Below are positions 5,002 to 25,079 of a stretch of 37,218 nt of DNA, in pieces. The stretch is from Microbacteriaceae bacterium X2B (GTDB lineage Bacteria > Actinomycetota > Actinomycetes > Actinomycetales > Microbacteriaceae). Numbering within the stretch: the stretch's first letter is position 1; each line of letters opens with the position of its first letter. Under the pieces are notes generated by a model. The model searched no databases, had not been told where the DNA came from, and saw only the letters and a list, made by a program, of their open reading frames with translations. The position numbers were made by a program, and so were the translations under genes. The stretch covers positions 1 to 37,218 of the forward strand of contig SCPB01000023.1 of NCBI GenBank assembly GCA_005502445.1, written 5' to 3'.

Positions 5002-5063
5002 GCGTCGAGACGACCCAGGACGATCTCGATCAAGAAGGAATGTTGTACCTCATCGATGCTGCT

Positions 5064-5498
5064 TCAACGGACTCGGTCGCGAACGACCATCACCGAGAAT
5101 GCCGAATGATGCACGAGCTGCGTCGAGACCGATCCCATCAGCAGGCCGGTGAACCCGCCGTATCCGCGGGATCCGACGATGACGAGGTCAGCCTCTTTGG
5201 ACGCATCGATGAGAACCTTGGCAAGAGAACCGTGAACGACATCCCCGGTGACATCGACGTCGTCGTGGACGACCTTCCCGAGCACCGTCGATTGCACGTG
5301 CCGGGCCGCGGGCTCGAGGTTCGTCGGATCCAACACGCCTTCCATGCCGGCGGCGACGATCGGGTACTCCCACGCGGTCAGCACCCGGACAACCGAGCCA
5401 CGCATCCGCCCCTCGCCGACCGCCCACTCAAGCGCCAACCGGGAGAGTCGGGACCCGTCCACCCCCACCACGATCCGAAATTGGCCATCTGTCGACAC
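5064..5498 (-). CDS. Universal stress protein, UspA family
   Basis: A single-domain universal stress protein of 144 residues. It begins with the Usp strand and nucleotide-binding RIVVGVDGS and ends with the ATP-binding signature VIVGSRGYGG...GSVS (G-x2-G-x9-G-S), so it probably binds ATP like the Rv2623 class. The GTG at 5498 is chosen because GGGAGG sits about nine bases upstream; an upstream ATG at 5576 would translate through the DosR-like box. In mycobacteria UspA proteins are prominent members of the DosR dormancy regulon. Here a DosR-like palindrome lies 63 bases upstream, placing this gene in the same proposed regulon as the kinase and phosphoketolase genes. Confidence 0.85.
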   Translation of the reverse strand: MSTDGQFRIVVGVDGSRLSRLALEWAVGEGRMRGSVVRVLTAWEYPIVAAGMEGVLDPTNLEPAARHVQSTVLGKVVHDDVDVTGDVVHGSLAKVLIDASKEADLVIVGSRGYGGFTGLLMGSVSTQLVHHSAFSVMVVRDRVR

Positions 5499-5560
5499 TG
5501 GCAAACCTCCCTCGATTCCGATGCTGCTCCCACACTGCTCGACGGGCAGCGCATATCGAG

Positions 5561-5574
5561 GTGCCAAAGGTCCC
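5561..5574 (-). promoter_or_regulatory. DosR-like box upstream of usp
   Basis: The minus-strand 14-mer GGGACCTTTGGCAC matches the island consensus GGGACCTTnGGCCC at 13 of 14 positions. It ends 63 bases before the Usp start. A weak -10, CAGTGT at 5532-5537, lies 24 bases from the box edge, the same distance as in the cytochrome b promoter. Confidence 0.5.
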
Positions 5575-5767
5575 ACGGGACTGAGAGCAGGAAGACGGGA
5601 TCGGTGATCTCACCAGCGAACACACCACCGCGCGCCAGCATCGCCGGATAGGCGACCGAGCCGTACTCGAATCCCCACCTCATGAGAGCCTGCCTCAGCA
5701 CGGGTGTCCGATGGCAGAATCCAGTCCGCTTCCGCGTCACCGTTTGAACCGAGCATCTCGCCTCTGT

Positions 5768-6208
5768 TCAGAGGCGATGGCGCCGACCGGTCCAGAGAAG
5801 ATACGCGCCGAGGGTGCCGACAACACTCAAACCCGCTGTCATCATGCCCCCTTCCCACGGCCGCCACTTTCGGTCTCGGCTGACTACTTCAGTCCGTACC
5901 GCTTCGATGTCGACCGGCGGGGCCGAGTCCTGCAGCTTGGCCAGTTCGCCGATGTAGTCCGCGGGGAGCAGGTCGGGCCTGGTCGACAGCAACTGGCCGA
6001 GCTTGATGAACATCGGGCCGAGCTGCTCCAGCGCAAGCCGTACATGCTCGGGGGTCGTGTACCGTTCTGCCCTCACCTCGTGTCCGAGTGCGCCCCGATG
6101 GAACGGGATGAGCCAGTCCATGCCGGCCAGGCCCGCCGCGAAGCCGAGGCCGTGGCGGCGGAGGGTCTTGGCGATCTGGCGATAACGAGGTGTCAGCCGC
6201 GTCGTCAT
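5768..6208 (-). pseudogene. AarF/UbiB (ABC1) kinase with internal deletion
   Basis: The first 105 residues are a clear AarF/UbiB N-terminus: [18 protein letters not shown], then the signature [20 protein letters not shown] followed by [14 protein letters not shown]. Full-length proteins have about 450-550 residues with an ABC1 kinase-like core. Here the reading frame jumps directly to a 35-residue tail with one membrane helix ([18 protein letters not shown]), which resembles the C-terminal anchor of the family. The whole catalytic core is therefore missing while the frame is kept, consistent with an in-frame internal deletion. It lies 12 bases after the GAPDH stop and is the last member of the minus-strand operon. 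The parent family supports quinone biosynthesis and redox functions; this remnant cannot be a kinase. Confidence 0.7.
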
Positions 6209-6220
6209 ATGTTGCTCGTC

Positions 6221-7283
6221 TCAGCTTTCATGTTCCGGCGCCGACTCGGTGCCGGGAAGGAACTCATGCAGGATGCCCATGGTGGAGTCGGTGATCGCCA
6301 TCGATTCGGCCGCCGTGGGAGCGAGCTCGGTCAGAGCGCGAATGGCGTCGATCGTCTCGGGGACGACGATGGCCTCGTTGAACACCTGGTAGGTGAGATA
6401 GGCCTCGTCACCGTCGACCGTCACGAGATCCTCCCAGACGGCGACCTCCCACATGTCGCCGCGTGGGCGTCCCAGGTCGCGCATGAGTTCGATCGTCGAG
6501 TTGAGGGCGACGAGCCCGTCGGACATGCGGATGAAGGCGATCCGTGGGGCGGCGCGAAGCGCGGCGACGACCTCCTCGCCTTCCGAGGGGCGGGTGAGCT
6601 GCAGCGTCCAGTAGTGGTTGTGCGTCTGGGTGTGCGCGCCCTTCGCGGCGATCGTGACGATGTCGAGGTCGGGCAGGACGCTCTGCGCGTCAGGCCCCTG
6701 ATGGGAGGGGATGCGCGGCTCGGGGACCATCGTGTTCATGATGCCGTCGAGGTGCGATTCCCACGGGTCGGTGGCCCGTCGGATGAGGACACCGCGGGCG
6801 CGGGCGAGCAGGTCCGCCTCCCGCAACGCGCCGAGGACGCGCACGATGCTCGTGGTGTTGCATGAGACGACGCGGGTGCTCTCCCTGCCCAGCGCGCTCG
6901 CGTAGTTCGCCTGGGCGACGAACGAATGCCCCGTCGCCTCGTGCTTCTCGCCCCCCCTGCAAGACGAATCTCACCGCGGCATCACGATAGCGGCGCACGT
7001 TTCCGGCCGCGATGTGCTTCGGAGTCGCGTCGACGACGACGTCGACCTTTGCGAGAAGGTCGTCGAGGGTGCCGTGCGTTTCGATGCCGGCCGCGGCCAT
7101 CGCAGCCGCCGCATCCGTCGTCGCCGCGAAGAAGTGCAGCCGTCCCGCCGCGGCTTTGACACGCCAGTCTGCGGCCACGTCGGCTACGCCGACCAATTCC
7201 ATGTCGGGCTGCAGCAGTACAGCGTCCGCCACTCGCTTGCCGATCACTCCGTATCCGTTCACGGCTACACGGGTCGTGCTCAT
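6221..7283 (-). pseudogene. Type II (archaeal-type) glyceraldehyde-3-phosphate dehydrogenase, frameshifted
   Basis: The two halves of a type II GAPDH lie in different frames. The first starts at 7283 after an AGGAGG site with the Rossmann motif VAVNGYGVIGKRVADAV and reaches ATPKHIAAGNVRRYRDAAVRF. The second contains residues ending WESHLDGIMNTMVPEP and the C-terminal catalytic domain. Removing one G from the seven-G run at 6951-6957 joins them perfectly, giving LQGGEKHEATG, then a catalytic SCNTTSIVR with Cys141, and a 353-residue protein, the normal length. The enzyme oxidises glyceraldehyde-3-phosphate phosphorylatively, usually with NADP or NAD. Its ATG overlaps the stop of the GH65 fusion (ATGA), so it is translationally coupled. 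It is either a recent pseudogene, a slippery contingency tract, or a sequencing indel. Confidence 0.85.
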
Positions 7284-10200
7284 TGGGGGTCCTCCTCGGT
7301 GGCTGAATTGGGCGGAGATGTGGCCGGAGAAATCGAGAACTCGCGTGAAGTTCCCCCCGCGAGGCGCGCGGTGGTTGCTCCGACCCGGACTTGGATCGGA
7401 GCGGCGGGGCTCGAGCGCAGACTGAGCGTGAGTTTCGCGTCGGTCACGTGCACGTCGACTCGGTGGCCGCGGTACGCGAGCTGGAATGTCGCGCTTCTCA
7501 AGCGGGCCGGGAGACGAGGCGAGAAGGCGAGTTCGTTCGTGCCGAGCCGGAGGCCCGCGAAGGACCGCGTGACGATATCGAGGGTGCCGGCCATGGCGCC
7601 GAGGTGAATCCCCTCGCGGGTCGTGCCCCACTGCGTGTCGTCGAGGTCGGAGATCAGCGCCTGGCGGAACAGTGCCCAGGAACGGGCCGTGTCGAGACCG
7701 GCGAGCACTGAAGCATGCACGACTCGGCTGAGAGTCGATCCATCGCTGGTGCGCGTGAGGTAGTAGTCGACGGTGCGGACGAGGTCCCGTCGTGAGAAGG
7801 CATACCCGAGGTGCGAGAGTTGGCGACGGAGGCCGCTCTCGCCGAGCAGATAAACGAGCATGACGACGTCGGGTTGTTTTGCGGCCTTGTACCGGTTCGT
7901 GGCGTCGTTCTCGGATTCCAGGATGAGGTCGAGCCGGCCGATGTTGCCGTATCGGTCACGGTAGCGCGCCCAGTCGAGCTCCTCCAGATTCTCGTACCCG
8001 TCGAACTGGCTGAGGATCCCGTCGGCGTGCACGGGCACGGCAAGCCGGGTGCCGACGTGCGACCATCGGGCGATCTCTCGATCGTCGATGTGAAGGCGAT
8101 CGGTGAGGTCTTCGCGGTCGTGCCCGGTGAGAACGTCGAGCGCATCGCATGCGCGGGCGCAGACCCATGAGGCGAGGACGTTGGTGTAGGTGTTGTCTCT
8201 GAGGCCGCTGCCCGGGGTGTCGGGATATCCGTCGTGATACTCGTCGGGGCCCATGACTCCGACTATGTGGAACCGGTCGTTCGTGGCGTCATAGCTGGCG
8301 AGGGAAGCGAAGAGGCGTGTGACCTCGATGATGAGTTCCGCGCCCTTGTCGGCCAGCCAGCCGAGGTCTCCGGTGGCTTGGAAATGCTGCCAGGCGTTCC
8401 ACGCGACGGCGAGGCCCACATGTCGTTGCCGGCGCGAGTTGTCCGGCATCCATCGCGAGGACCTCTCGTTGTACAGGTGGGTCGGCGTCTCTTCACGGCC
8501 GTCGCTGCCGCTCTGCCAGGGGAAGAGCGCACCTTCCAGCCCCGCGCTCCGAGCGGCCGCACGGGCCGCGCCCAGCCGGTGCCAGCGATAGTCCAGGAGC
8601 GCGGCGGCCACCCGCGGAAGTCTCAGGCCGACGACCGGGAGCACGAAGACCTCGTCCCAGAACACGTGGCCCCGGTAGCCTTCACCGTGGAGGCCGCGTG
8701 CGGGAATCCCGGCGTCGAGTTCGGCGGTGTGCGGCGAGATGGCTTGCAGCAGATGGAAGACGTGCAGGTTCAAGACGAGTTGAGTGAGCCGATCGGCGTC
8801 GAGGGTCACCGAGAATCGGGCCCAGAGCCTCCGCCACGCGGCTTGGTGTCGCTCGAGCGCGCCGGCGACTGCCGGGGCCTGATCGAGAACGCGACCAACG
8901 GCGGCGAGGCCGGGCGAGGAGATGGCCGGGTCTCTCGACGTGAAGACCGCTGCCGACTTGGTGACCGTCGCGGCCTCGCCGTCGACGAGGTGCACGTCGA
9001 TGTGCTGCATAAAGCGGCGCGCGGACCGGATTGCTGAAGCTGGTGCCACTGCGTGCGCGCCGCGGAGAGCGAGGTGCACGGCCGTCGCGATCCGCACCTT
9101 GCTCTGCCTGGTCTGCACCTCACAGAGGATGACGTCGCCGTCGTTCCGGAAGGTCGGCGAGGCGAGGTGCGTGGCGTTCGTGCCGGTGTAGCTGGGGACG
9201 TTCGTGTTGCGGATGCTCGCATCGATCCCAGCCCGAATCGCGACTCGGCCGTTCCAGCCGATCGCCGTGACGGTGGTCTCCTGCACGGCGAGATGGGGGT
9301 CGTCCATGGAGACGAACGATTGCTGAGTGATAGTGAGCCGGCGTCCGCCGGGGCCTGTGAGCGTCACATGCCTGATCGAGACTCCGTGCTGGAGGTGCAC
9401 CTCGCGGCGCTCGTCTGCGGCCGGGACCGCGCCGCTCGACCACCATGGGCCGTCGTCGATGCGGAGGTCGAATGGAAGCCAGTTCGGAGCGTTGACGAGG
9501 TGTTCCTCCTCCAGCCGGCGGCCATGGATGTCGCTGACGAGGCGGTTGTACACGCCGGCAAGGTAGGTACCGGGATAGTGGGTTCCGTCATCCTCGTGCT
9601 CGGGCAGGGCGCCTCGGGTGACCATGCGCCCATTGCCCAACGAGGTCAGCGCCTCGCGATGGCCTTCGTGGGCTGGATCGAAGCCGTGGTATACCAACAC
9701 CCACGGGTCGGTTCGTGACGCACCGAGGTCGAGTTCGCTGACATCGTTCACGACGACGTCCGCACCCGCGGCCTCGAGCTGTGCACGATGGTCCGCACGG
9801 TCGACTCCGACGACGAGGCCGAAACCACCCCGCCGGCCTGCCTCGATTCCGGAGATGGCGTCTTCGATGACCGCGGAACGCTCCGGTGCAACCTCCAACC
9901 GGCGGGCAGCTTCGAGGAACATGGCCGGATCGGGTTTGCCCGCCAAGCCGAGATCGAAAACGACCTGGCCATCGATGATGGCATCGAACGTGTCCGCGAG
10001 GCCAGCTGCTGCGAGCATCTCCCGCGCGTTCCGGCTCGCAGTGACGAGCCCAACGAGCGTGCCGGCCGCGCGCAGTCGGTCAAGGAACGCGATCGTCCCG
10101 GGGAAGGCTCGCAGTCCTCGCTCGTCGAGCTCTGCGAGGAACAGCTCGTTCTTCCGAGCGGCGAGCCCGGCGATGGTCCACGCGTCATGGGGGTCTCCCG

Positions 10201-10534
10201 GCGTCCCCGGATCGAGCGTGATGCCCCGCGAGGCCAGGAACGCTGCGACTCCGTCCTCGCGGCTCCGGCCATCGACGTACCGGCGGTAGTCGTCGTCCGG
10301 ATCGAACACCCTGCCGAGGTCCTCGACACCGGCCCGCGAGTCGCTGAGCACCGCGTCGAACAGCCGTTTCCACGCTGCGGTATGAATCGACGCAGTATTC
10401 GTGACGACTCCGTCCATGTCGACCAGGACCGCGTCGTAGATGGTCTCGAAAGCGTGGCTGGTGGGTGCGCCGTGCACCGGCGCCTGCTCGCTCGACGAGC
10501 GGCTGGAAGACAGGGTCGGCCGACGACTCGTCAT
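7280..10534 (-). CDS. Beta-phosphoglucomutase / GH65 disaccharide phosphorylase fusion
   Basis: A 1084-residue bifunctional enzyme. Residues about 34-265 are a HAD-family beta-phosphoglucomutase: nucleophile Asp39 and acid/base Asp41 in DMDGVVTNT, motif II in LVTASRNA, Lys200 in GKPDP, and IEDAISGIEAG. Residues about 275-1084 are a GH65 phosphorylase, with the conserved GHVFWDEVF (622-630) and the general acid Glu765 in VMGPDEYHD. GH65 enzymes phosphorolyse trehalose, maltose, kojibiose or related alpha-glucosides to beta-glucose-1-phosphate, which the first domain converts to glucose-6-phosphate. Separate neighbours do this job in M. tuberculosis (Rv3400/Rv3401). The ATG at 10534 follows GGAGG. 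Its stop overlaps the GAPDH start, and the phosphoketolase gene lies upstream. Confidence 0.88.
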   Translation of the reverse strand: MTSRRPTLSSSRSSSEQAPVHGAPTSHAFETIYDAVLVDMDGVVTNTASIHTAAWKRLFDAVLSDSRAGVEDLGRVFDPDDDYRRYVDGRSREDGVAAFLASRGITLDPGTPGDPHDAWTIAGLAARKNELFLAELDERGLRAFPGTIAFLDRLRAAGTLVGLVTASRNAREMLAAAGLADTFDAIIDGQVVFDLGLAGKPDPAMFLEAARRLEVAPERSAVIEDAISGIEAGRRGGFGLVVGVDRADHRAQLEAAGADVVVNDVSELDLGASRTDPWVLVYHGFDPAHEGHREALTSLGNGRMVTRGALPEHEDDGTHYPGTYLAGVYNRLVSDIHGRRLEEEHLVNAPNWLPFDLRIDDGPWWSSGAVPAADERREVHLQHGVSIRHVTLTGPGGRRLTITQQSFVSMDDPHLAVQETTVTAIGWNGRVAIRAGIDASIRNTNVPSYTGTNATHLASPTFRNDGDVILCEVQTRQSKVRIATAVHLALRGAHAVAPASAIRSARRFMQHIDVHLVDGEAATVTKSAAVFTSRDPAISSPGLAAVGRVLDQAPAVAGALERHQAAWRRLWARFSVTLDADRLTQLVLNLHVFHLLQAISPHTAELDAGIPARGLHGEGYRGHVFWDEVFVLPVVGLRLPRVAAALLDYRWHRLGAARAAARSAGLEGALFPWQSGSDGREETPTHLYNERSSRWMPDNSRRQRHVGLAVAWNAWQHFQATGDLGWLADKGAELIIEVTRLFASLASYDATNDRFHIVGVMGPDEYHDGYPDTPGSGLRDNTYTNVLASWVCARACDALDVLTGHDREDLTDRLHIDDREIARWSHVGTRLAVPVHADGILSQFDGYENLEELDWARYRDRYGNIGRLDLILESENDATNRYKAAKQPDVVMLVYLLGESGLRRQLSHLGYAFSRRDLVRTVDYYLTRTSDGSTLSRVVHASVLAGLDTARSWALFRQALISDLDDTQWGTTREGIHLGAMAGTLDIVTRSFAGLRLGTNELAFSPRLPARLRSATFQLAYRGHRVDVHVTDAKLTLSLRSSPAAPIQVRVGATTARLAGGTSREFSISPATSPPNSATEEDPQ

Positions 10535-10610: not shown

Positions 10611-13016
10611 TCAGCTGACGGCCTGTTCTTGCTCGGCGCCGGATGTCGATGCGCCCCAGATCCAGTCCCGGATCTCGGGCATGTCCTGGCCGTTCTCCCT
10701 GATATAGACGGAATGGCGGATGAGGTCGTTACGAAGTCGCTCACGCACGTGAGCGGACGCGTCGCGCAGGCGTGGGACCCGGTCGATCACGTCGAGCGCC
10801 AAGTGGAAGCGATCCAGTTCATTCAGCACGCACATGTCGAACGGCGTGGTGGTCGTGCCTTCCTCCTGGTATCCGTGGACGTGGATGTTGCCGTGGTTCG
10901 CCCGGCGGTAGGTCAGACGGTGGATCAGCGACGGGTAGCCGTGGTAGGCAAACACGACCGGCACATCGGTGGTGAACAGTGCATCGAAATCATCGTCGGG
11001 CAGGCCATGCGGGTGCGCGCGTTGATCCCGCAACCGCAGCAGATCCACGACGTTCACCACGCGGATGCGCAGATCGGGGAAGGCGGAACGGAGAATCGTC
11101 ACGGCCGCGAGGGTCTCCAGGGTCGGCACGTCGCCGGCACATGCCATGACGACATCCGGCTTCTGGCCTTCGTCCGTGCTGGCCCAGCCCCAGATCCCGA
11201 TGCCCTTGGTGCAGTGCTCGATCGCCTGCTCCATGTTGAGGAACTGGGGCTGGGGCTGCTTGCCCGCGACGATGACGTTCACGTACTGGCGGCTCCTCAG
11301 GCAGTGATCGGCCACCGACAGGAGCGTGTTCGCGTCCGGCGGCAGGTACACCCGGATGACGTCGGGCTTCTTGTTCACGACGTGGTCGATGAAGCCGGGA
11401 TCCTGATGCGAGAACCCGTTGTGATCCTGCCTCCACACATGGGATGTGAGGAGGTAGTTGAGCGACGCGATCGGGCGCCGCCACGGGATGTCATTCGTCG
11501 TCGTCAACCACTTGGCGTGTTGATTGAACATCGAGTCGATGATGTGGATGAACGCCTCGTAGCAGGAGAAGAAACCATGCCGCCCGGTGAGCAGATACCC
11601 TTCCAGCCAGCCTTGGCAGGTGTGCTCGGAGAGGATCTCCATCACTCGTCCGTCGGGCGCCAGATGGTCGTCGCCGGGGACGGTGGCCGCATTCCACGCC
11701 CGATCGGTGACCTCGAGCACGGCGTTCAGTCGGTTGGAGTTGTTCTCGTCGGGCGCGAACACGCGGAAGTTGTCCATGTTGCCGGACATCACGTCGCGCA
11801 GGAGCACGCCGAGCGCGCGGGTGGACTCCGCATCCGACGCTCCGGGGTGGACGACGGGAACTGCGTACTGGCGGAAATCGGGCATCCGCAGGTCCCGGAG
11901 CAGGCCGCCGCCATTGCTGTGCGGATTGGAGCTCATGCGCCGCGTTCCCGACGGGTGAAGGGACACGATCTCCGGAAGAGGTGCACCGCTCTCATCGAAC
12001 AGCTCCTCCGGACGGTAGCTGCGCAGCCATCGCTCCAGGACCTCGCGGTGCGAATCGTTCTCACGCGCCTCGGCGAAGGGAACCTGGTGCGAACGCCACG
12101 TCCCCTCGACCTTCTTGCCGTCGACCTCGGCCGGGCCGGTCCATCCTTTTGGAGAACGCAAGACGATCATCGGCCAACGGGGTCGCTCGGCTCGCCCAGC
12201 ATCGCATGCTCGGCGCTTGATGCCCTCGATCTCGTCGAGGCAGGTCTCGAGTGCGCGAGCGAAATCCTGATGCATCTGCGCCGGGTCGTCACCCTCCACG
12301 TAGTAGGGGGTGTGGCCGAAACCGCGCAGGAGCTGGTCGAGCTCGTCACGACTGATCCGCCCCAGAACGGTCGGGTTGGCGATCTTGTAGCCGTTCAGGT
12401 GCAGGATCGGCAGGACGGTCCCGTCCCGCTGCGGATGCACGAACTTGTTCGACTGCCAACTCGCCGCCAGCGGCCCGGTCTCGGCCTCGCCGTCTCCGAC
12501 CACCGCGGCGACGATGAGATCTGGATTGTCGAAGGCAGCCCCGTAGGCGTGCGAGAGCGCGTATCCCAGCTCGCCGCCCTCATGGATGGAGCCGGGAGTC
12601 TCGGGGGCGACGTGGCTGGGGATCCCGCCGGGGAAAGAGAACTGCCGGAACAGGCGCCGCATCCCCTCAGCGTCCCGGGTGATGTTCGGGTACGTCTCCG
12701 TGTACGAACCTTCCAACCAGGAGGCTGCCACAGGGCCTGGGCCCCCATGGCCGGGACCCATGATGTACATCATGTCGAGGTCGTGCGCCATGATCGCCCG
12801 GTTGAGGTGGGCGTAGATGAAGTTCAGTCCCGGTGTCGTGCCCCAGTGACCGAGGAGTCTCGGTTTGATGTGCTCAGGCTCGAGTGGTTCACGAAGCAGC
12901 GGATTGTCGAGGAGGTAGATCTGCCCGACGGACAGGTAATTTGCGGCGCGCCACCACGCGTTGATGGCGTCCAGCTGGGCTTCGTCGAGGATGTCGCTGC
13001 TCGAGGAGGTGCTCAC
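10611..13016 (-). CDS. xfp: Xylulose-5-phosphate/fructose-6-phosphate phosphoketolase
   Basis: An 801-residue thiamine-diphosphate enzyme of full family length. Signatures include [11 protein letters not shown] at 56-66, phosphoketolase motif [15 protein letters not shown] at 146-160, and the TPP/Mg motif [14 protein letters not shown] at 174-187. It cleaves xylulose-5-phosphate (and usually fructose-6-phosphate) with phosphate to acetyl-phosphate plus glyceraldehyde-3-phosphate (or erythrose-4-phosphate), feeding acetate kinase for ATP. Dual specificity is known for many family members but is not provable here. The GTG start at 13016 overlaps the ATPase stop by four bases (GTGA), with AAAGGA upstream, so the two are coupled. 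The gene is followed 77 bases later by the GH65 fusion, whose product can supply hexose phosphate. Confidence 0.93.
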
Positions 13017-15484
13017 GAGCCGGATCCTTTCGTCGATCCGGTGACCGGTGCGGGTGCGACGGGCTCGGAGCGGGAAGGTACGGGCGAGGTCGGGGCGGCG
13101 GGCAGATGCAGCCGCTTCAGGAGGAGGGCGTTGACGGCAACGATCACACTCGATCCCGACATCGAGATCGCAGCGATCTCGGGGGTGAGCATGATCCCGA
13201 ATGCCGGGTAGAAGACGCCTGCAGCGATAGGCAGCGCGACGGTGTTGTAGCCGATCGCCCAACCGAGATTCTGCCGCATCTTTCGCACTGTCCCCTTGCC
13301 GATACGGAGTGCAATGGGTACGTCGAGCGGGTCGGAACGCATGAGCACGACATCGGCGGTCTCGATGGCGACGTCGGTGCCGGCGCCGATCGCGACGCCC
13401 AGGTCGGCCTGCGCCAAGGCGGGGGCGTCGTTCACACCGTCGCCGACCATCGCCACCTTCCTGCCGGCCTTCTGGAGTTCGGCGATCTTCGCCGACTTGT
13501 CCTCCGGAAGGACCTCGGCGATGATCGTGTCGATGCCGAGCTGCTGCCCGATGCGTGCGGCGGTCGGGGCATTGTCGCCGGTGAGCATCACCACCTCCAC
13601 ACCCATCTCGTGCATCGCGGTGATCGCGGCTGCCGCCGTCTCTCGCGGGGCGTCGGCGAGGGCGATGATCCCGACGGCCGTGCCGTCGACGGCCACGATG
13701 ATGGCGGTGCGGCCGGTGCTCGCCAATGCCTGCTGCTGCTCGCTGACGGCTGCCGAGTCGACGCCTTGCGCAGTCATCAGGCGCGTATTGCCGAGGAGCA
13801 CCTGGTGGCCCTCGACCGTCGAGACGGCGCCCTGGCCGGTGATGTTGCGGAACGACTCCGCCGACGCCTTGCGCGCACCACGCTGCTCGGCGTACGCGAC
13901 GACCGCCTTGGCGAGTGGATGCTCCGACTCGCGCTCGGCTGCTGCAGCCAGTGCAAGCAGTTCGAGTTCGTCGTACCCGATCGGGAGGTAGTCGGTGACC
14001 TCGGGCTCGCCCTTGGTCAGCGTGCCCGTCTTATCGAGCACGACGGTGTCGATGCTCGCCGCGGACTCGATCGCCGTGGCGTTCTTGAACAGCACGCCTC
14101 GCTTCGCTCCGAGACCCGTGCCGACCATGATCGCGGTCGGGGTGGCCAGACCGAGGGCGTCGGGGCAGGTGATCACCACGACCGTGATCGCGAAGAGAAG
14201 GGCCATCGAGAAGCTGGCCCCGGCGAGCAGCCAGGCACCCAGTACTGTCGACCCGCCGATCAAGGCGACGAAGACCAGCCAGAAGGCCGCACGATCAGCG
14301 AGCCGCTGACCGGGTGCCTTCGAATTCTGCGCCTCCTGCACGAGGGCGACGATCTGCGCCAGAGCCGTGTCCGCCCCGACCTTGGTGGCACGCACCCGAA
14401 GGGTGCCCGTCGTGTTGACGGTCGCGCCGACGACATCGGATCCGGGCTGCTTGACGACCGGGAGGCTCTCGCCGGTCACCATGGACTCGTCGATCTCCGA
14501 GTCGCCGTCCTCGACGACGCCGTCGGTGGGAACCTTCGCACCGGGACGAACGAGCATCAAGTCGCCGGGCACGACCTCCGATGTCGACACCTCGACGGCC
14601 TCGCCGTCACGGATCACGACCGCGCGCGGCGGCGCGAGCTCAAGCAACGTGCGGATGGCGTCGTTCGCCCCGCCACGGGCTCGCATCTCGACCCAGTGCC
14701 CGAGGAGCACGAACGTCGCGAGCACGGTCGAGGCTTCGTAGAACACCTCGCCGCCCCCGGTGAGCGTGATGACCAGGCTGTACACCCACCCTGCACCGAC
14801 GCCCACCGCGACCAGCACCATCATGTCGAGGGTTCGCGCCCGCAGCGCCCGGTACGCGCCGTCGAAGAAGATCCAGGCGGAGTAGAACATCACCGGCAGC
14901 GACAGGAGGAGCAGGAACACGTCGTCCCTGAGCCCGAAAGGCGCCGGGACGGTGAACCCGAGCACCTCACGACCCAGCGGGGACCACAACACGATCGGGA
15001 TCGAAAGAACCGCCGCGAGGAGGAAACGGTTGCGCATGTCGCGAACCATCTCGTCCATGCTCGCCCCGCCGTGACCGCCGTGACCCATCACCTCCTGCGC
15101 CGTCCGCGGAGCCTCCGCATGGGAAGCATGGGCCGCGGCCGGCGCTTCCGGGGCAGGCTCAGCCACGGTCTGCCCGTGCATCGAAGGGTCGTGGTTGACC
15201 CGGTCAGCTGCCGCCGCACGATCCGCGGGCTCTTCCATCGGATCGCAGATGTGACCCGGCACCGATTGGCCGGCGCAATGGAATCCGCAGTCCTCGACCC
15301 AGGAACGCAACTCGGCGATGTTCGTCGTCTGGGGATCATAGGTGATGTTGGCGGTCTGCGAGACGGGATTGACCTCGACGCTGACCACGCCAGGCCGGCG
15401 CCGCAGCGTGGCCTCCGCCACCGCCTTCGATGACGCCCATTGGACGCCCGATATCTCGAGTACGACCGATTCGGTGTGATTCAT
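13013..15484 (-). CDS. P1B-type heavy-metal (copper-like) transporting ATPase with CPD motif
   Basis: An 823-residue P1B ATPase. The phosphorylation site is [12 protein letters not shown] with Asp484; TGES (337-340), the HP signature in SEHPLAKA and GDGVNDAP are intact. Helices 7-8 carry YN and MSGSS as in Cu(I) pumps. Two features differ from CopA: the membrane motif is Cys440-Pro-Asp (CPD) rather than CPC or CPH, and the N-terminal HMA-like domain has WASS where CxxC is expected (GVQWASSKA). Downstream lie extra cysteines (66, 70, 80) and a His-rich segment (GHGGHGG). The cargo is therefore uncertain. The ATG at 15484 has GAAGGGA upstream. It leads the operon and overlaps the phosphoketolase start. 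Confidence 0.88.
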
Positions 15485-15761: not shown

Positions 15762-19284
<3,523 letters not shown>

Positions 19285-19808
19285 GCGGATGACAAGCGAG
19301 GCCGCGGTTCGCAGGCACGGCTCAGCTGCCGTCCGCTCGCGTGCGCTCGAACGTGCGTCCGAGTACCTCGGTCGGCGTGATCCGTACCCACCGATCCTTC
19401 TCGCCGGGTTCCCACGGCGCGATGCCGAGCCGCCCGTCGACGTATTCGCTCATGGGTCGAGTGTCGCGTGCACCGTCCCGCGACGTCAGGTCGAAGATCC
19501 CGTGGCTCGGGGACGGATTTCGACTGGCCGCCAGCGGGTCGACCGGGTCGGATCGGCGACCGTTGATCGCCCAGTGGTTGGCCGATCGAGCTGTGGGCCG
19601 CGTCCGTTCCAGGCGCATTGTAGTGCGCACCCTGTCGTGCTCCACCTTCGACTGCTCGTAGTTGCGGCGGCGGGCCGGAGGGCCCGAGACCTGTCGACGA
19701 CGCTCGAAAACTGGTCGGTTTCGGACTCGCCGTGGGGATCGCACTGATGGGCGCGATCCTGACCTCATTCGGTCCGAACGCCGCGTTCGACCGGGCGTTC
19801 GGACCGGC
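19285..19808. other. Region of gene debris downstream of the response regulator
   Basis: No intact gene is visible in these 524 bases. They contain, on the minus strand, an unassigned 43-residue frame (19322-19453, MSEYVDGRLG onward) and a multicopper oxidase scrap; on the plus strand, the tail of an MFS transporter. The junctions do not carry recognisable insertion-sequence ends. Confidence 0.5.
19526..19620 (-). pseudogene. Fragment of a multicopper oxidase
   Basis: A short frame contains NHWAINGRRSDPVDPLAA, which matches YDWAINGRRFDPAEPLAG in the intact multicopper oxidase of this window (residues about 395-412). Nothing before or after it belongs to the oxidase. It is a scrap of a second, deleted oxidase gene or of a duplication. 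Confidence 0.5.
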
Positions 19809-19935
19809 TCACCACGCGGCATTCCTGCAAGGATTCGCCGTCTCTCTCGCGATCAACGCTGGGATCGCCACAGGTGCCGCGCTCCTCGCCGCGGTCCTGC
19901 TGCGCCCGCGTGTTCGGCGTCCGTCCGGTTCGTGA
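19699..19935 (+). pseudogene. C-terminal remnant of an MFS (DHA2-like) transporter
   Basis: The frame reads GFGLAVGIALMGAIL and continues to AFLQGFAVSLAINAG followed by an Ala/Leu-rich helix and an Arg-rich end, the pattern of the last two transmembrane helices of drug:H+ antiporters (DHA2 family). No start codon with a ribosome binding site and no upstream helices are present, so about 85-90 percent of the gene is missing. It overlaps the 3' end of the convergent small membrane protein frame. Confidence 0.55.
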
Positions 19936-20240
19936 CCCGCTCGGCCCGCCCTGCGCCGGAAGCTGAGCAGTCGGGTCATCACGGGGAAGTCCGTCGCGAG
20001 CGGAGGCATCGGCGGGCGTGTTGCGCGGCGCGCGCGCTCGAGCGCGATGACGACGCGCGCCGCGAGCATCATCGCGGCGAGGAGCAGCATCGCGCTGAGC
20101 GCGAACGACAGACCGGTCATGGGGTCCGGAGGTGACGACACAGCTGCGGAGAGCCAGCCAGCCGCCAGGATCGAGATCGCGATCAGCACCCAGAGCGACC
20201 GGTGCGCACGTCGCAGCGATGAGCCTCCTGACCGACTCAC
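19809..20240 (-). CDS. Small membrane protein coupled to cytochrome b
   Basis: A predicted protein of 143 residues with two membrane helices near residues 16-34 (WVLIAISILAAGWLSAAV) and 42-68 (GLSFALSAMLLLAAMMLAARVVIAL), then a basic, proline-rich cytoplasmic tail. I do not recognise the family. The GTG start at 20240 overlaps the cytochrome b stop (GTGA), so it is translated with it and may be a small partner subunit. The last 40 or so residues are Arg/Ala-rich and lie antisense to an MFS remnant, so the original C-terminus may have been replaced. Confidence 0.6.
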   Translation of the reverse strand: MSRSGGSSLRRAHRSLWVLIAISILAAGWLSAAVSSPPDPMTGLSFALSAMLLLAAMMLAARVVIALERARRATRPPMPPLATDFPVMTRLLSFRRRAGRAGHEPDGRRTRGRSRTAARSAAPVAIPALIARETANPCRNAAW

Positions 20241-21337
20241 AGGTGGACCTCTGCCGGGGTGATCGCCATGAGGATCGTGAGCACCGTCAGCACCGCGAGT
20301 ACCACGAGGGCGATCCCCATCGCGACAGGCCGTCGACGCCACCAGCGCTCCGGGCCCCGGTCGACGAAGGGCAGGACCGCGAGGAGGAAGAAGAACACCA
20401 GCTCACCCCACACGATCGCCGACAGGCCGAACCAGTTCTCGAGCGTGAACGGCCACCAGAACATCCACGGCGGCTTCGTGATCTCGATCCCGGGAACCGG
20501 AGTCGACCCGATCGGGGCGGGGAAGAGAACCGCCAGGACGCCAAGGATTCCGGCCAGCGCGATCCCGAAGGCGACGAGTCGGCGGATGTGGCGGGTGAAC
20601 GGCTGGGTCGGCTCTCCCTCGGCGGCCTGCTCACTCGATGTGCCGGCCGGGAGAAGCGGGTGCGGCGACATCCGGTGCCTCTTGACGAGCAGGAGGTGCA
20701 GCACGAGGAGTACGAGGATGATGCCGGGGATGATGACCACGTGCGCTCCGTACAGGCGCAGCAGGATGGAGATCCGACCCGCGAACTCCGGTGAGAACCA
20801 GAAGCCCAAACCCCCGAGAAGATTGCCGATCTCGATGTTGTGGCCGAGGGCTTCGAAGCCCTCCTGGTCCCACTTGAGCACCGTGCCGGTGAAGAGGGCG
20901 AACGTGATGAGTCCCAGCATCGCGACGCCGATGAGCCAGTTGCCTTCCCGCGGTCTCTTGTAGGACCCGGTCAGGAAGATGCGGATCATGTGAAGTACTG
21001 CGCCGACGTACATCGCCTGCGCCGCCCAGAAGTGCACGCCGCGGAAGAGGCTGCCTGCCCAGACCTCCGTCTCGATCGCTCGGACGGATTGGTTCGCATC
21101 CTCGGGCATCGGGGAGTAGAACTGGGCCAGCACGATCCCGGAACCGATCAGCAGCAAGAAGCTGATCGCGGTGATGCCGCCGAGCGTCCAGGCGAAGCGG
21201 TTCGCGTGCTCGGGCACCGGGTACGCCAAGGCGGTGATGCCGAGCCGCTCATCGATGGCATCCAGCGCTCGGCGCCCCCACGTGCGGGAGTCGGAAGCGT
21301 CCACGGCGGTCGAGGTCCGGAGTTCGGTCGGCATCAT
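20237..21337 (-). CDS. Cytochrome b (bc/b6f-type) subunit
   Basis: A 366-residue membrane protein with a full cytochrome b N-terminal domain. The four heme ligands are in the two standard pairs: His102/His116 (H-x13-H, in VHFWAAQAMYVGAVLHM) and His199/His214 (H-x14-H). A C-terminal part adds helices and PPWMFWW, which sits where the quinol-oxidation PEWY motif occurs in subunit IV. About eight helices are predicted. A complete bc complex would also need a Rieske protein and cytochrome c; neither is nearby, so this is a stand-alone diheme cytochrome b of unknown electron acceptor. It is coupled by ATGA to the upstream membrane protein and by GTGA to the downstream one. Confidence 0.88.
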   Translation of the reverse strand: MMPTELRTSTAVDASDSRTWGRRALDAIDERLGITALAYPVPEHANRFAWTLGGITAISFLLLIGSGIVLAQFYSPMPEDANQSVRAIETEVWAGSLFRGVHFWAAQAMYVGAVLHMIRIFLTGSYKRPREGNWLIGVAMLGLITFALFTGTVLKWDQEGFEALGHNIEIGNLLGGLGFWFSPEFAGRISILLRLYGAHVVIIPGIILVLLVLHLLLVKRHRMSPHPLLPAGTSSEQAAEGEPTQPFTRHIRRLVAFGIALAGILGVLAVLFPAPIGSTPVPGIEITKPPWMFWWPFTLENWFGLSAIVWGELVFFFLLAVLPFVDRGPERWWRRRPVAMGIALVVLAVLTVLTILMAITPAEVHL

Positions 21338-21984
21338 GCCTCCTTGCCGGTCGATGCGACGGTTGCGCGGTCTCTGGCTGCGGAGATATCGTGACCGAGC
21401 TCACGAAGACTCTCGGTTGGCCGGAAGAGCACGGCGAGCACGATGCCCACGGCAGCCGCGAGCACCGAGAGCCCGAGGAAGACCCAGTCCGTCACCGACA
21501 GCGCACCTCTGGGCGGTAGTGGAGCGAGCATCACCGTCGTGCCGGTCTCGTCGCCGACCGCGGGCTCGAGCGAATCGACGGCCTCGGAGATCGAGCCCTG
21601 CAGGAGCGTTTGCGCCTCTTCGGTGCTTCCGGCCCTGAGGGAGGCCGCCGCCTGTTCCAGCATCAGCACGTCGACCCCGTCATGGCCCTCGGCCTCGAGC
21701 GCGTCCCCGACCATGGCGAGCGCTTGCGCGGTGCCGTCCGGACCCGGGTCATTCACCAGGAAGCTCAGAGCCTGCAGCACCATGACGTAGCCCTCGTCGG
21801 CCGACTGGCCACCGTCCGCTCGTGCCGGCGATGCGATCGTGAGGCTGCCGAGGACCATGAGGGTCCCGATCGCGGCGGCGGCCATGTGGCATCCGACGCC
21901 GTCTCGTCGCAGACGGCGCGGTCGAACCGGGCCCCGCGTTCGCCAGCGAGCTTGGTGGGCCGGCAGCTCTTCTCGGCTTGTCAT
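21334..21984 (-). CDS. Exported/membrane-anchored protein of the cytochrome b operon
   Basis: A 216-residue protein with a long basic N-terminus, a signal-peptide-like hydrophobic segment ending ASPARADGG near residue 58, an extracytoplasmic helical domain (about 60-150, with repeated Ala/Glu/Leu helices), and one C-terminal transmembrane helix near WVFLGLSVLAAAVGIVLAVLF followed by a short cytoplasmic tail. No heme or metal motif is present. The start is ATG 21984 after GAAGGGG. A DosR-like box centred near -42 stands upstream of it, making this the promoter-proximal gene of the three-gene cytochrome b operon. The function is unknown; it could be an assembly or partner protein. Confidence 0.72.
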   Translation of the reverse strand: MTSREELPAHQARWRTRGPVRPRRLRRDGVGCHMAAAAIGTLMVLGSLTIASPARADGGQSADEGYVMVLQALSFLVNDPGPDGTAQALAMVGDALEAEGHDGVDVLMLEQAAASLRAGSTEEAQTLLQGSISEAVDSLEPAVGDETGTTVMLAPLPPRGALSVTDWVFLGLSVLAAAVGIVLAVLFRPTESLRELGHDISAARDRATVASTGKEA

Positions 21985-22036
21985 GGTCGCCCCTTCTCGG
22001 CTGTTCAGGACGCCTGGGGGTGACGCCGCTCAGCAC

Positions 22037-22042
22037 AAGCTA
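22037..22042 (-). promoter_or_regulatory. -10 box TAGCTT of the cytochrome b operon
   Basis: TAGCTT on the minus strand gives transcription from about 22030 and a 45-base leader with GAAGGGG before the ATG at 21984. The DosR-like box ends 24 bases upstream of it. Confidence 0.45.
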
Positions 22043-22065
22043 CGGGCGCGGCGCGACCGCCTGCA

Positions 22066-22079
22066 GGGACTTAAGGCCT
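22066..22079 (+). promoter_or_regulatory. DosR-like box of the cytochrome b operon
   Basis: GGGACTTAAGGCCT matches the mycobacterial DosR core GGGACTTNNGTCCC at all fixed positions but two, and the island consensus closely. Its centre is about 42 bases upstream of the predicted transcription start, the usual position for DosR activation. Confidence 0.55.
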
Positions 22080-22103
22080 GCTGATCCCCGACACAGATGC
22101 CGT

Positions 22104-22355
22104 TTATCGGTACCGTGCGGGGTCGGCTTCTGTGATTGGGCCGCAGCCATTCGGAAGGTGGCGACGACCTCGGTGCTCATGCATCGACTCCGTGGGAAGC
22201 GGACTGGCGTCAGGCGCCGCGCGCTCCTGGGTCGCGCGCACGTGGTGGTGGCCGCCGAGCGATGCTTCGTTCTCGTCGAGGGTCGCCTCCACGATGGACT
22301 TCGAGGACGCCCAGCGGACGCCGACGACTTCCAGGACAACGGTTCGTGTGTGCAT
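22104..22355 (-). pseudogene. N-terminal remnant of a second P1B ATPase (HMA-like fragment)
   Basis: The first 26 residues, VVLEVVGVRWASSKSIVEATL after a short lead, match [21 protein letters not shown] at the start of the intact ATPase. The match ends abruptly; the remaining residues (His-rich, then random) resemble nothing. A good site AGGGAAG precedes the ATG. It sits directly after the multicopper oxidase gene in the same direction, suggesting that an oxidase-ATPase operon once existed here and that the ATPase was deleted. The rest of the 399-base interval 21985-22383 holds the cytochrome b operon promoter. Confidence 0.6.
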
Positions 22356-22383
22356 GGTTTCGGCTTCCCTGTCGTGGAGGTTG

Positions 22384-23880
22384 TCAGGCCGCTTGGTACC
22401 CGAGAATGGTCATCATCCCGGCCTCGGCGTGGTAGATGTTGTGGCAGTGCGCCGCCCAGAGTCCCGGGTTGTCGGCGTCGAAGTCGACAGTCAGAGATCG
22501 TCGCGGCAGGACGATCGAGGTGTCCTTCCGCGGCCCTGACCCGGAGTGCTGGTAGGTGTGCCCGTGCAGGTGGAACGGATGCCACATCTGGGTGGTGTTC
22601 TCGATGCGCAGCCTCACGCGTTCACCTTGAGTCACCGCGAGTGCGCCGGCCAGCGGCTCGGCCGGGTCGAACCGACGGCCGTTGATCGCCCAGTCGTAGG
22701 CCATCATCGAGCCGGACAGCCTCGCAGTCAGTTCGCGGTCGACCGCACGCTCGGGGAGCACGACACTCGCATCGGCGGTGAGATCGCCGGCCGTGAGAAC
22801 CGACCCGGTCAGCTCGCGTACGGTCGCCGTCGCACGTGGGGTCTCGCCCGATCCGGTGCGCACGATCGCCAATGCCGTCTCGCCTTTGCCCTCCGCCGCG
22901 GCGACGAAGGGGAAGACGCCGTCGCCGAGCGTGACGAGGACGTCGTAGCGTTCGCCCATGCCGACCAGGATCGCATCGGTTTCCACCGGGTTCACCGGGA
23001 ATCCGTCGCTGTGGATGACGGTGAGGCGGTGACCGCCCAGCGCGACGCGGAACGCCGTATCGCTTCCCGCGTTGACGATGCGCAATCGGATCCGATTGCC
23101 CGGCGCGCTCGTGAAGGTCTCCGGGTCGGCAGCAGGCCGACCGTTGATGAGGTAATGCGGGTAGGACACGTCGCCGGCGTCCCCGCCGAGCAGGTCCGAG
23201 CGGGCGCCCATCATCATGCGTCCCCCGCCGTCGCCCATCATCCCCGCCATCCCGCCGCGCAGTTCCTCGAGCACCTCGTCAGGGGTGCCGGTCACCCCAT
23301 CGAGCCAGTCGTCGAGGATGACCACCCACTCGTCGTCGTAGCCCAAGGGTTCGTTCGGGTCGTCGACGATCAGGGCGCCGTACAGGCCGCGGTCCAGTTG
23401 CGGGCCGACATGCGGGTGGAACCAGTAGGTTCCCGGGTGCGCGGCGATGAACTCGTAGGTGAAGTCCTCTCCGGCTCCGATCGGAGCCTGGGTTGCACCG
23501 GGAACCCCGTCCATGTCGTTGCGCAGAGCCAGACCGTGCCAGTGCACAGAAGTATCAGCCGCGAGCCGGTTGCGAACGTTCGCGCGCAGGGTGTCCCCTG
23601 CCGTCAACCGGATCGTGGGCGCCGGCACCGATCCGAAGCTCCAGGTGTTCGCCACGGTGCCGGCGAGGTCGATCTGCGTCGGGGACGCGACCATGTCGAT
23701 GCTCGTGACTCGCCCCGTGCCCCCGCGGGCCAGCTCGGCCTGTTGTACCGGCGCTCCAGTCGGGGTGACGTATCTCGGTGGCGCAGTGCACGAAGCGAGC
23801 GCGATCGCGGCCAAGGTTCCGGTGCCGACAGCGAGGAAGCCGCGCCTGGTCAGGTCGGCGCCGCGGATCTCGGAGTTCAT
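22384..23880 (-). CDS. Tat-exported multicopper oxidase (CueO-like)
   Basis: A 498-residue three-domain copper oxidase. The N-terminus has a Tat signal (LTRRGFLAVGTG) followed by LASC, so it is probably an exported lipoprotein anchored at Cys31. All four copper-ligand motifs are present: HWHG (113-116), HPH (155-157), HPFHLHGH (434-441) and HCHNIYHAEAGM, with type 1 Cys479 and axial Met489. A Met-rich stretch at 211-224 (MAGMMGDGGGRMMM) is typical of cuprous oxidases such as CueO, suggesting Cu(I) detoxification. The ATG at 23880 has AGAGGA upstream; an alternative ATG at 23898 overlaps the preceding lipoprotein stop (TGATG) and would add six residues. Confidence 0.9.
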   Translation of the reverse strand: MNSEIRGADLTRRGFLAVGTGTLAAIALASCTAPPRYVTPTGAPVQQAELARGGTGRVTSIDMVASPTQIDLAGTVANTWSFGSVPAPTIRLTAGDTLRANVRNRLAADTSVHWHGLALRNDMDGVPGATQAPIGAGEDFTYEFIAAHPGTYWFHPHVGPQLDRGLYGALIVDDPNEPLGYDDEWVVILDDWLDGVTGTPDEVLEELRGGMAGMMGDGGGRMMMGARSDLLGGDAGDVSYPHYLINGRPAADPETFTSAPGNRIRLRIVNAGSDTAFRVALGGHRLTVIHSDGFPVNPVETDAILVGMGERYDVLVTLGDGVFPFVAAAEGKGETALAIVRTGSGETPRATATVRELTGSVLTAGDLTADASVVLPERAVDRELTARLSGSMMAYDWAINGRRFDPAEPLAGALAVTQGERVRLRIENTTQMWHPFHLHGHTYQHSGSGPRKDTSIVLPRRSLTVDFDADNPGLWAAHCHNIYHAEAGMMTILGYQAA

Positions 23881-23897
23881 GTCAGTCCTCTTTCTCA

Positions 23898-24111
23898 TCA
23901 GTCGATGCTTTCCCAGTTGTTGCGGGTGTTCGGGAAGCGGAGGTCCCCGCCTCCGCGCGACTCATCCGCGGTGCTCTCGGGAGGTGGCATCAGGCTGGAC
24001 CCGTGAACCATGCCGGGCGTTTCCGCCTGTGCCGTTGTTCTGGGCGCAGCCGGCGAGCAATAGAGCCGCGATCAGAGCGCCGGAGGCCAGCGCGGTTGTG
24101 CGAAGTCGCAC
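23898..24111 (-). pseudogene. Small lipoprotein of the copper operon, frameshifted
   Basis: From a GTG at 24111 with AGGGG upstream the frame encodes a lipoprotein signal ending LLLAGCAQNN. In that frame a stop follows soon after. In the next frame the sequence GMVHGSSLMPPPESTADES continues to LRFPNTRNNWESID and a TGA that overlaps the alternative oxidase start. One surplus base near 24015-24030 explains the split. Joined, the product would be about 70 residues: a signal peptide, a lipidated cysteine and a short Met/His/Pro-containing periplasmic peptide. I do not recognise a named family; its place suggests a copper-handling partner of the oxidase. Confidence 0.55.
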
Positions 24112-24179
24112 TGTGCAGACCCCTGGGCATCAGTCGGAAACAGGGTCGCGATTGGTCGCCCGGACGGGGCGAAACATCC

Positions 24180-24196
24180 TCCCGGCGAGCCCGGGA
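24180..24196 (-). terminator. Weak hairpin after the DUF6153-like gene
   Basis: TCCCGG and CCGGGA form a six-pair GC stem around a five-base loop, 11-27 bases after the stop at 24207, followed on the minus strand by ATGTTTC. The T run is poor, so termination is uncertain. Confidence 0.25.
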
Positions 24197-24206
24197 AGAG
24201 GGCGAA

Positions 24207-24650
24207 TCAGGTCCGGCTGACAGACAGGACGAGCAGTGACGGTGGCCGTGCTGGGGCCAATGCGCGGGCCGAGTCGCGAACGAGCACCGCGAGGCCGAGG
24301 GACATGCTCAGGCGGGCGAGCAGGGCTGGAGCAAGGACGACGGTGGCTGCGGCGAGCAGGGCGAGCGCGCAGACCATCAGCAGCAGGGCATGGCCGGGCG
24401 TGTTCCCTGGAGCTCCGCACTCGCCGGCGCAGTACCCGGCATCGACCGCGGAGTTATTGACAGCGGCCTGGGGCGCCTGGTCATGCGCTGCGGCGGCGAT
24501 GGTGACCGCATCGGATTCAAGGTGGTCGTCGCCGGTGCTGAGGGTGTGCATCGCGAGCAAGCTGGCGATCAGCACGAATGCTGCAGTGAAGGTCAGGAAG
24601 ACGCCGTGCATTGTCGAGCGTGTGCTCGCCAGCGAGCGGATCGCACTCAT
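24207..24650 (-). CDS. DUF6153-like two-helix membrane protein
   Basis: A 147-residue protein with an N-terminal helix (VFLTFTAAFVLIASLLAM), an extracytoplasmic segment with two cysteines (YCAGECG), and a second helix pair (ALLLMVCALALLAAATVVLAPALL). The pattern of a short N-terminal helix, acidic and His-containing loop and C-terminal helices resembles the actinobacterial DUF6153 family, often found beside copper genes; this is a pattern match only. The ATG at 24650 is chosen because GGGGAGG lies seven bases upstream. It precedes the lipoprotein and oxidase genes on the same strand. A DosR-like box is 139 bases upstream. Confidence 0.65.
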   Translation of the reverse strand: MSAIRSLASTRSTMHGVFLTFTAAFVLIASLLAMHTLSTGDDHLESDAVTIAAAAHDQAPQAAVNNSAVDAGYCAGECGAPGNTPGHALLLMVCALALLAAATVVLAPALLARLSMSLGLAVLVRDSARALAPARPPSLLVLSVSRT

Positions 24651-24674
24651 GCGCTTGCCTCCCCCCACTCAAGG

Positions 24675-25007
24675 CTAACTCAACATCCGGTCTGGATGGG
24701 AGTCCAGCGGGAACACCTCACATCGTCGCGCCGCCGACGTCCGTGACCACCGTACGTCGATGCTTCCGGCTGCTGGAGCTGCCGGACAGGGCCGAAGGTC
24801 CCAGGGCTGGGGACGAACGAGTCGGGCGATCGCCGCGCTGGCCTCGCGCAGTTTCTCCTCGGAGACGGGGCCACCTTGTTCCGCCGCCTCAGCGAAGCAG
24901 TGCACGAGATGATCGTCCAGCAGGCCAAGGGCTACCGCTTCGAGTGCCCTGGCGGTGGGCGAAACGTGGGTGAGCACGTCGGTGCAGTAGGGGTCGTACT
25001 CGATCAC
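24675..25007 (-). pseudogene. CsoR-family copper repressor lacking its N-terminus
   Basis: The frame encodes the second and third helices of a CsoR/DUF156 repressor: YDPYCTDVLTHVSPTARAL, then LLDDHLVHCFAEA and KLREASAAIARLVRP. The copper ligands are kept with exact CsoR spacing (Cys-x24-His-x3-Cys). The first helix, with the conserved DNA-contacting Arg and the RLRRIEGQVRG signature, is absent; upstream there is an in-frame stop after about ten further residues and then the tRNA gene. The C-terminal end also lacks its usual stop and reads through a DosR-like box. No ribosome binding site precedes the nominal GTG at 25007. It is a truncated pseudogene. Confidence 0.75.
24789..24802 (-). promoter_or_regulatory. 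DosR-like box upstream of the copper gene group
   Basis: The minus-strand GGGACCTTCGGCCC is identical to the box at 15804-15817. It lies within the read-through tail of the truncated CsoR. An AAGCAT at 24760-24765 is at the same 24-base distance as the -10 of the cytochrome b promoter. Likely targets are the DUF6153-like, lipoprotein and oxidase genes. Confidence 0.45.
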
Positions 25008-25079
25008 GCCGAGATGAGAAACGATCCGAAACCATCAAATGCGGGTTCGGACCGTTCACGATGTCGTGAGACATCACAT

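Follow-up and report, generated by a model that had tools for sequence, protein, structure and literature searches.

The closest described counterparts of the locus analyzed here are the OsdK-OsdR system of Streptomyces coelicolor and the mycobacterial DosR/DevR dormancy regulon. According to the available text of PMC5069765, all predicted sites that were tested, including the SCO5978/SCO5979 region, were bound by OsdR in gel shifts, acetyl phosphate was used as the in vitro phosphate donor to OsdR, and a pyridoxamine oxidase gene (SCO0214) is among the targets predicted for OsdR. The DosR/DevR box core used for Rhodococcus equi is given as GGGHCNWWNGNCCC in the accessible part of PMC2947987, and cydAB of Mycobacterium smegmatis is reported outside the DevR regulon in the portion of PMC7739888 that was consulted. 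The DNA studied here, referred to as the window, is a stretch of 37,218 nucleotides from Microbacteriaceae bacterium X2B (the host), in which an island of ~20 kb (5002..25079), lying between pfkB and a tRNA-Met gene, carries a sensor kinase gene (dosS) and a regulator gene (dosR) among genes for universal stress proteins (usp), a phosphoketolase operon, a cytochrome b operon and a copper group. Judged by its sequence, this two-component system is of the DosR/OsdR kind, and it is very probable that the island is an acquired low-oxygen module of this type, in which DosS senses the signal and DosR binds short palindromic boxes and induces the units of the island.

The two regulatory genes, both intact frames, are as follows:
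16910..18631, plus strand: DosS/DosT-like sensor histidine kinase; match to the DosT GAF domain 2vzw, 4.3e-46.
18628..19284, plus strand: DosR/DevR-like response regulator; match to DevR 3c3w, E 4.8e-68.

The best solved-structure match of the island DosR was DevR (3c3w), and the protein combines a receiver domain with a LuxR-type helix-turn-helix domain in which the DevR recognition segment EKTVKNYVS is identical; the preliminary description of this DNA had likewise named a DosR-like regulator with the same recognition helix. The sensor kinase named there is likewise of the DosT/DevS type, its best solved-structure matches being the GAF domains of DosT and DevS, with the histidine before PPM kept, and it contains a GAF domain with this proximal histidine, HisKA_3 and HATPase. 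This histidine is presumably the heme ligand, and the glycine in YGALGV is taken by us to reflect a DosT-like state. EKTVKNYVS is found as well in a DosR-like regulator resident in the host, and the sensor belonging to it keeps the histidine.

The candidate regulator binding sites of the island are the following:
5561..5574, minus strand: DosR-type box GGGACCTTTGGCAC, 62 bases upstream of usp1.
15804..15817, minus strand: DosR/OsdR box GGGACCTTCGGCCC, ~320 bases from the likely start of the ATPase-xfp-GH65 operon.
16824..16837, plus strand: box GGGCCTTTGGTCCT in the divergent usp2/dosS promoter.
19672..19685, no strand assigned: box-like site GGGCCGGAGGGCCC, differing from the published core at one position; absent from the preliminary description.
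22066..22079, plus strand: box GGGACTTAAGGCCT, 81 bases upstream of the cytochrome b operon.
24789..24802, minus strand: DosR/OsdR box GGGACCTTCGGCCC, before DUF6153-mco and just beyond the homologous end of csoR.

Five 14-base palindromes, two of them identical, had been described before, and all five are present (5561, 15804, 16824, 22066 and 24789), with 15804 and 24789 as the identical pair. Their resemblance to the DosR box core was also borne out, since all five lie within one mismatch of GGGHCNWWNGNCCC, two of them exactly. With this core at ≤1 mismatch, there were 10 matches in the window, seven of them intergenic (intergenic DNA makes up 11.9% of the window), and six of the seven island matches were intergenic (13.4% intergenic). 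Among 839 permuted mirror patterns, a single one, nearly the same motif as GGGHCNWWNGNCCC, reached six island-intergenic matches. The earlier placement of the boxes before transcription units is supported, as a statement about boxes of the published DosR/OsdR type; for 15804 and 24789, intergenic status depends on the trimming of the usp2 and csoR frames to the point where Agromyces homology stops (the csoR stop being placed by homology to L020). With the boxes at 5561 and 16824, the usp genes and the regulator operon are both preceded by such sites. GGGACCTTCGGCCC is contained within the predicted OsdR sites of SCO0167, SCO0216 and SCO5979 given in the available text of PMC5069765, and a matrix built from the sites in Table 1 of that source ranked 24789 first and 15804 second of 37,203 positions, the other boxes taking ranks 9, 15 and 21. 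Exact copies of GGGACCTTCGGCCC number three in the host genome, namely the two of the island and one located 86 bases before cydA.

The boxes recur at related loci. A block of usp2, dosS and dosR with its box is common to the island and Agromyces; GGGCCTTTGGTCCT is found identical and in the same place in L020 (at 8184), with variants in L017, L018 and L019, and in 4/4 Agromyces the region upstream of dosS contains a box that deviates from the core by at most one mismatch. At L022, the box precedes dosR rather than dosS. Over the loci of 79 relatives, the loose core showed a weak intergenic enrichment (3.8-fold, against 0.8–3.0 for controls). As a separate observation, genome G005 (L157), another member of the genus, has an additional DosR-like gene (61%), accompanied by one box at 4331, which precedes a zinc dehydrogenase gene, and by another at 8672.

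Boxes of this type also occur across the genus of the host. The exact sequence GGGACCTTYGGCCC was counted 38 times, spread over 21 of the 26 genomes of the genus, whereas its reversed control gave 5. Upstream of cydA (L168-L187), the box was present in all 20 readable genus genomes (a 21st match is a partial gene), 12 times exactly and 8 times with one mismatch to the core, at positions from -86 to -112; in the host, it lies at -86, and cydB follows cydA. When these upstream regions are aligned, the best conserved 14 columns are those of the box (0.968 versus a mean of 0.538, gaps counted against), and the TAGG-like element ~24 bases downstream of it may be a -10 element. The surroundings were examined for 30 of the 38 exact sites: the neighbouring gene is cydA for nine of them, a pyridoxamine-oxidase gene for seven and a lipoprotein-like gene for three, while one site precedes a zinc dehydrogenase gene and one is 15804 of the window. 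Pyridoxamine oxidase is thus a recurrent neighbour of the genus boxes, and the resident gene of this type in the host is itself preceded, 54 bases before the match, by a box that departs from the published core by one mismatch.

The island itself bears the marks of an insertion. The distance between pfkB and the methyltransferase gene is 20 kb in the window against 271 (G006), 371 (G005), 1577 (G001) and 1834 bases (G012) in relatives; in G006 and G005, tRNA-Met sits between these two genes, and it was detected in 11 of the 13 stretches examined. The right edge of the island is formed by:
25080..25156, minus strand: tRNA-Met.

Both the position of the island next to a tRNA gene and the short form of the site in relatives are as in tRNA-associated islands. 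The GC content of the island is 0.673 versus ~0.72 in the flanks, and GC at third codon positions is 0.79–0.89 for 11 island genes versus 0.87–0.95 for nine flanking genes. Among 46 regulators placed in a tree, the DosR of the island clusters with those of Agromyces humatus and A. humi (97/89), nested in a five-row set with two further Agromyces (90/89), and the resident DosR-like copies (24 genus rows, including that of the host) form a separate clade (99/96); the G018 row was omitted and the best G014 match reached only 41%. The resident clade is placed for 24 of the 26 genus genomes. No duplication of the tRNA 3′ end, as an attachment site, was seen among the 20 direct repeat families listed of at least 60, and no integrase turned up in general scans of the proteins, a search aimed at integrases not having been made. 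Taken together, the sequence data support 5002..25079 as a single inserted, acquired island. Other members of the genus likewise have additional DNA, several kb long, at the pfkB/tRNA-Met/methyltransferase spot (L147-L152), which looks like an insertion hotspot.

Several observations weigh against the island being a working DosR module of the kind proposed. The consensus of the preliminary description, GGGACCTTnGGCCC, is matched without mismatch by 15804 and 24789, with one mismatch by 5561 and with three by 16824 and 22066; at ≤3 mismatches it gave 17 window matches versus a mean of 18.6 in shuffles, and at ≤2 mismatches 69 genome matches (35 + 34) versus 103 (51 + 52) for the reversed pattern. 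Since GGGACCTTnGGCCC is no commoner than shuffles in the window or the reversed pattern in the genome, the five near-identical boxes are not significant as originally stated, and this consensus was rejected as a genome-wide marker; an early box pattern excluding C at position 9 also led nowhere. The loose core GGGMCNNNNGKCCC was not enriched genome-wide either (34 sites versus 40 for the reversed control). Just two of the five boxes reach top ranks with the OsdR matrix, whose island site totals over each threshold stay in the shuffled range, and in the untrimmed list of open reading frames (ORFs) boxes 15804 and 24789 fall within the tails of usp2 and csoR. The region upstream of dosS was without a box at 5 of 11 Microbacteriaceae-type loci (one of which had just 133 bases), 7 of the 30 exact genus sites lie solely inside predicted ORFs, the surroundings of the resident DosR operon yielded no box, and the histidine pattern missed its site in 4 of the 14 sensors examined, for which the frames are approximate. 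Outside the genus, in the best-scoring 28 of 94 matching genomes, the core before cydA was found exactly in 0/28 and with one mismatch in 3/28 (controls, 1 to 6); among these three is L221, where GGGACCTTCGACCC, which fits the published core, lies at -79. As the core is no commoner there than controls, a cydA box as a family-wide feature was rejected. Finally, several island genes are broken, the ABC1 kinase gene being without its middle and the frame of type II glyceraldehyde-3-phosphate dehydrogenase (GAPDH) split in two, so that the module is partly decayed and may in part have ceased to function.

The window count obtained with GGGACCTTnGGCCC and the matrix counts resembling shuffles are what would be expected if the five boxes were chance GC-rich matches in a GC-rich island. 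The position test against 839 permuted patterns and the conservation across species speak against this explanation, which we regard as very unlikely; sequence itself disfavours chance for 15804, 24789 and 16824, whereas for 5561 and 22066 the argument is that of the position test alone. The even counts for GGGMCNNNNGKCCC and its reversed control would also suit a different regulator of GC-rich palindromes as the owner of the boxes, their likeness to DosR sites being a coincidence. It is very unlikely that this is so, given boxes identical to predicted OsdR sites, neighbours of the DosR type (usp, pyridoxamine oxidase) and the linkage to dosS/dosR in relatives.

The resident regulator raises a different alternative, namely that the boxes are read by it alone, the imported DosRS being redundant or decaying and the island a passive addition to the host regulon. 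The resident clade found in 24 of 26 genus genomes, the recognition segment and sensor histidine that the host copy shares with the island proteins, the resident boxes of cydA and pyridoxamine oxidase, and the broken genes of the island all fit such a view; dosS and dosR are intact, though, the usp2/dosS box agrees in place and sequence with Agromyces, and the resident operon has no boxes nearby, so that exclusive reading by the resident regulator seems to us doubtful. An acquired module with its own active regulator remains the preferred reading, and in it the same sites are probably recognized by both regulators, the resident and the imported one; such cross-reading is expected from the sequences, because the genus keeps the same box before cydAB and the resident regulator has the same recognition segment. 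A more elaborate version, which we put forward tentatively and hold to be somewhat less than an even chance, is that of one box code with two sensors: the resident DosR-like system would hold the cytochrome bd oxidase (cydAB) under GGGACCTTCGGCCC, the island would add a second DosR and a phosphoketolase cassette under the same box, and acetyl phosphate made by the phosphoketolase (Xfp) could feed back as phosphate donor to DosR. Through the shared box, the cassette would in that case be connected to the low-oxygen network already resident in the host.

The mechanism envisaged for the acquired module would start with DosS, whose DosT-like GAF domain would most likely detect, via heme, either the loss of O2 or the presence of nitric oxide, and which would phosphorylate DosR. 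Phosphorylated DosR would bind palindromes of the GGGAC-NNNN-GKCCC type and activate usp1, usp2/dosSR and the operon of ATPase, phosphoketolase and disaccharide phosphorylase, as well as the cytochrome b pair and the copper/multicopper oxidase group. Survival would then be aided by the universal stress proteins, by a cytochrome b branch serving as an alternative, and by the cleavage of sugars with formation of acetyl phosphate. The sequences show the boxes, the protein families, the insertion, the phylogeny and the conservation of the cydA and usp2/dosS boxes, whereas we infer heme binding, the signal, DNA binding, the direction of regulation and cross-talk in this scheme.

The remaining genes of the island, with the ends of usp2 and csoR set by homology, are listed below:
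5064..5498, minus strand: universal stress protein 1 (usp1, start trimmed); Pfam Usp, 3e-25.
5768..6208, minus strand: ABC1/UbiB-like kinase remnant; both ends present, ~400 middle residues gone.
6221..7290, minus strand: type II GAPDH, frame-broken; NCBIfam NF003251 above cut-off for the C-terminal half.
7280..10501, minus strand: fusion of a GH65 disaccharide phosphorylase-like and a beta-phosphoglucomutase-like HAD domain; family matches.
10611..13010, minus strand: Xfp phosphoketolase; Pfam XFP_N, XFP and XFP_C, NCBIfam phosphoketolase 1468 bits.
13013..15484, minus strand: P1B-type heavy-metal ATPase with HMA domain; family matches.
15915..16724, minus strand: universal stress protein 2 (usp2); Pfam Usp, the raw open frame extending to 15762.
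19530..19583, minus strand: remnant of a second multicopper oxidase gene; 85% DNA repeat of 22649-22702 within mco.
20237..21337, minus strand: membrane cytochrome b; Pfam Cytochrome_B.
21334..21984, minus strand: putative exported membrane-anchored protein, judged by eye; in an operon with cytochrome b.
22104..22355, minus strand: probable N-terminal remnant of an HMA ATPase behind mco; by eye like the start of the intact ATPase.
22384..23898, minus strand: multicopper oxidase (MCO; gene mco); family matches, 84% to the L252 MCO.
24207..24668, minus strand: DUF6153 protein; family match.
24810..25007, minus strand: CsoR-like repressor; Pfam match without the first 21 positions, homologous stop lost.

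The usp2 protein matches those of L017, L018 and L020 at 57–59%, and family searches gave no match for the protein of 21334..21984. Longer relatives of the ABC1 remnant are found at L018:17230-19110 (626 amino acids) and L252:14646-16304 (552 amino acids), and the GAPDH homology runs over 6248-6958 in one frame and 6948-7283 in another. The mco remnant and the probable HMA remnant (19530-19583 and 22104-22355) suggest a past duplication and rearrangement of the operon; the reading of the latter is based also on mco and ATPase genes being neighbours in L252-L254.

Xfp is present in 5 of the 26 genus genomes, host included. The order MCO, ATPase, Xfp, GH65/phosphoglucomutase and type II GAPDH is found in G006, G014 and G010, followed by ABC1 in G006 and G014; G010 gave no ABC1 match, its contig ending 0.45 kb beyond GAPDH. 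In G007, the order is Xfp, ATPase, GH65, ABC1 and GAPDH without MCO, so that among the operon copies on L252-L255 three of four have the ABC1 kinase and L255 is without MCO. No DosRS relative was found in the operon stretches of these four genomes (12 to 20 kb). An exact published-type box, GGGACCTTCGACCC, stands shortly before MCO in G010, and a one-mismatch box ~270 bases before the MCO match in G006 and G014, which do not count as independent evidence because they are near-identical there; no box was found in G007, where one-mismatch matches were inspected on the plus strand only. The preliminary description had held that sensor, regulator and nearly all targets travel together. Their presence in one inserted island upholds the first part, whereas "nearly all" is too strong, because the boxed cydAB and pyridoxamine-oxidase gene are resident and lie outside the island, and because four further genomes of the genus have the phosphoketolase operon without a DosRS relative on those stretches.

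Phosphoketolase genes lie within 10 kb of DosR-like genes at 6 of 80 loci. In other genera, boxes upstream of xfp give a weak signal, with an exact core at L052 only and one mismatch at L033, L161 and L094 (L162 being the same place); none was found upstream at L035, L163 and L164, and the sequence of L053 comprised just 4 bases upstream. At L052:2636-2765 (Kitasatospora aureofaciens), three exact core boxes and one mismatched box are arranged in tandem before xfp, ~7 kb from a dosR-like gene.

If the preferred reading is true, dormancy-type regulons are able to transfer as a single block and to connect with a resident copy via a shared operator, and the bd oxidase is wired to a DosR-type box in one Microbacteriaceae genus, unlike what the consulted part of PMC7739888 reports for M. 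smegmatis. Hosts beyond mycobacteria would then be at hand for direct tests of DosR rewiring and cross-talk, and phosphoketolase is indicated as a recurring neighbour of DosR-like genes. Within a limited search of the literature on DosR together with phosphoketolase and hypoxia, with genomic islands or with Microbacteriaceae, this combination was not reported.

Compared with OsdK-OsdR, as far as the available text of PMC5069765 describes it, the island likewise has a DosR-type two-component system beside usp genes, with predicted targets clustered around it and sites containing GGGACCTTCGGCCC, and pyridoxamine oxidase is again a predicted target. It differs in that cyd and phosphoketolase are unmentioned in the main text of PMC5069765, and in that the genes of the island were inserted at a tRNA-Met spot, in a host with a further, resident DosR-like pair. 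With the mycobacterial DosR/DevR dormancy regulon it shares EKTVKNYVS, the DosT/DevS-type GAF domain, the box core and the usp genes; whereas cydAB of M. smegmatis is reported outside the DevR regulon, cydA is preceded by the box in every readable genome of the genus. Xfp recalls the bifidobacterial phosphoketolase shunt, and an acetate kinase gene lies elsewhere in the host genome, but the island Xfp, unlike that shunt, stands in an operon with a metal ATPase, a GH65/phosphoglucomutase fusion and type II GAPDH. The system is thus different from the known DosR/OsdR systems in the mobile setting beside a resident copy, the boxed bd oxidase of the genus and the phosphoketolase operon.

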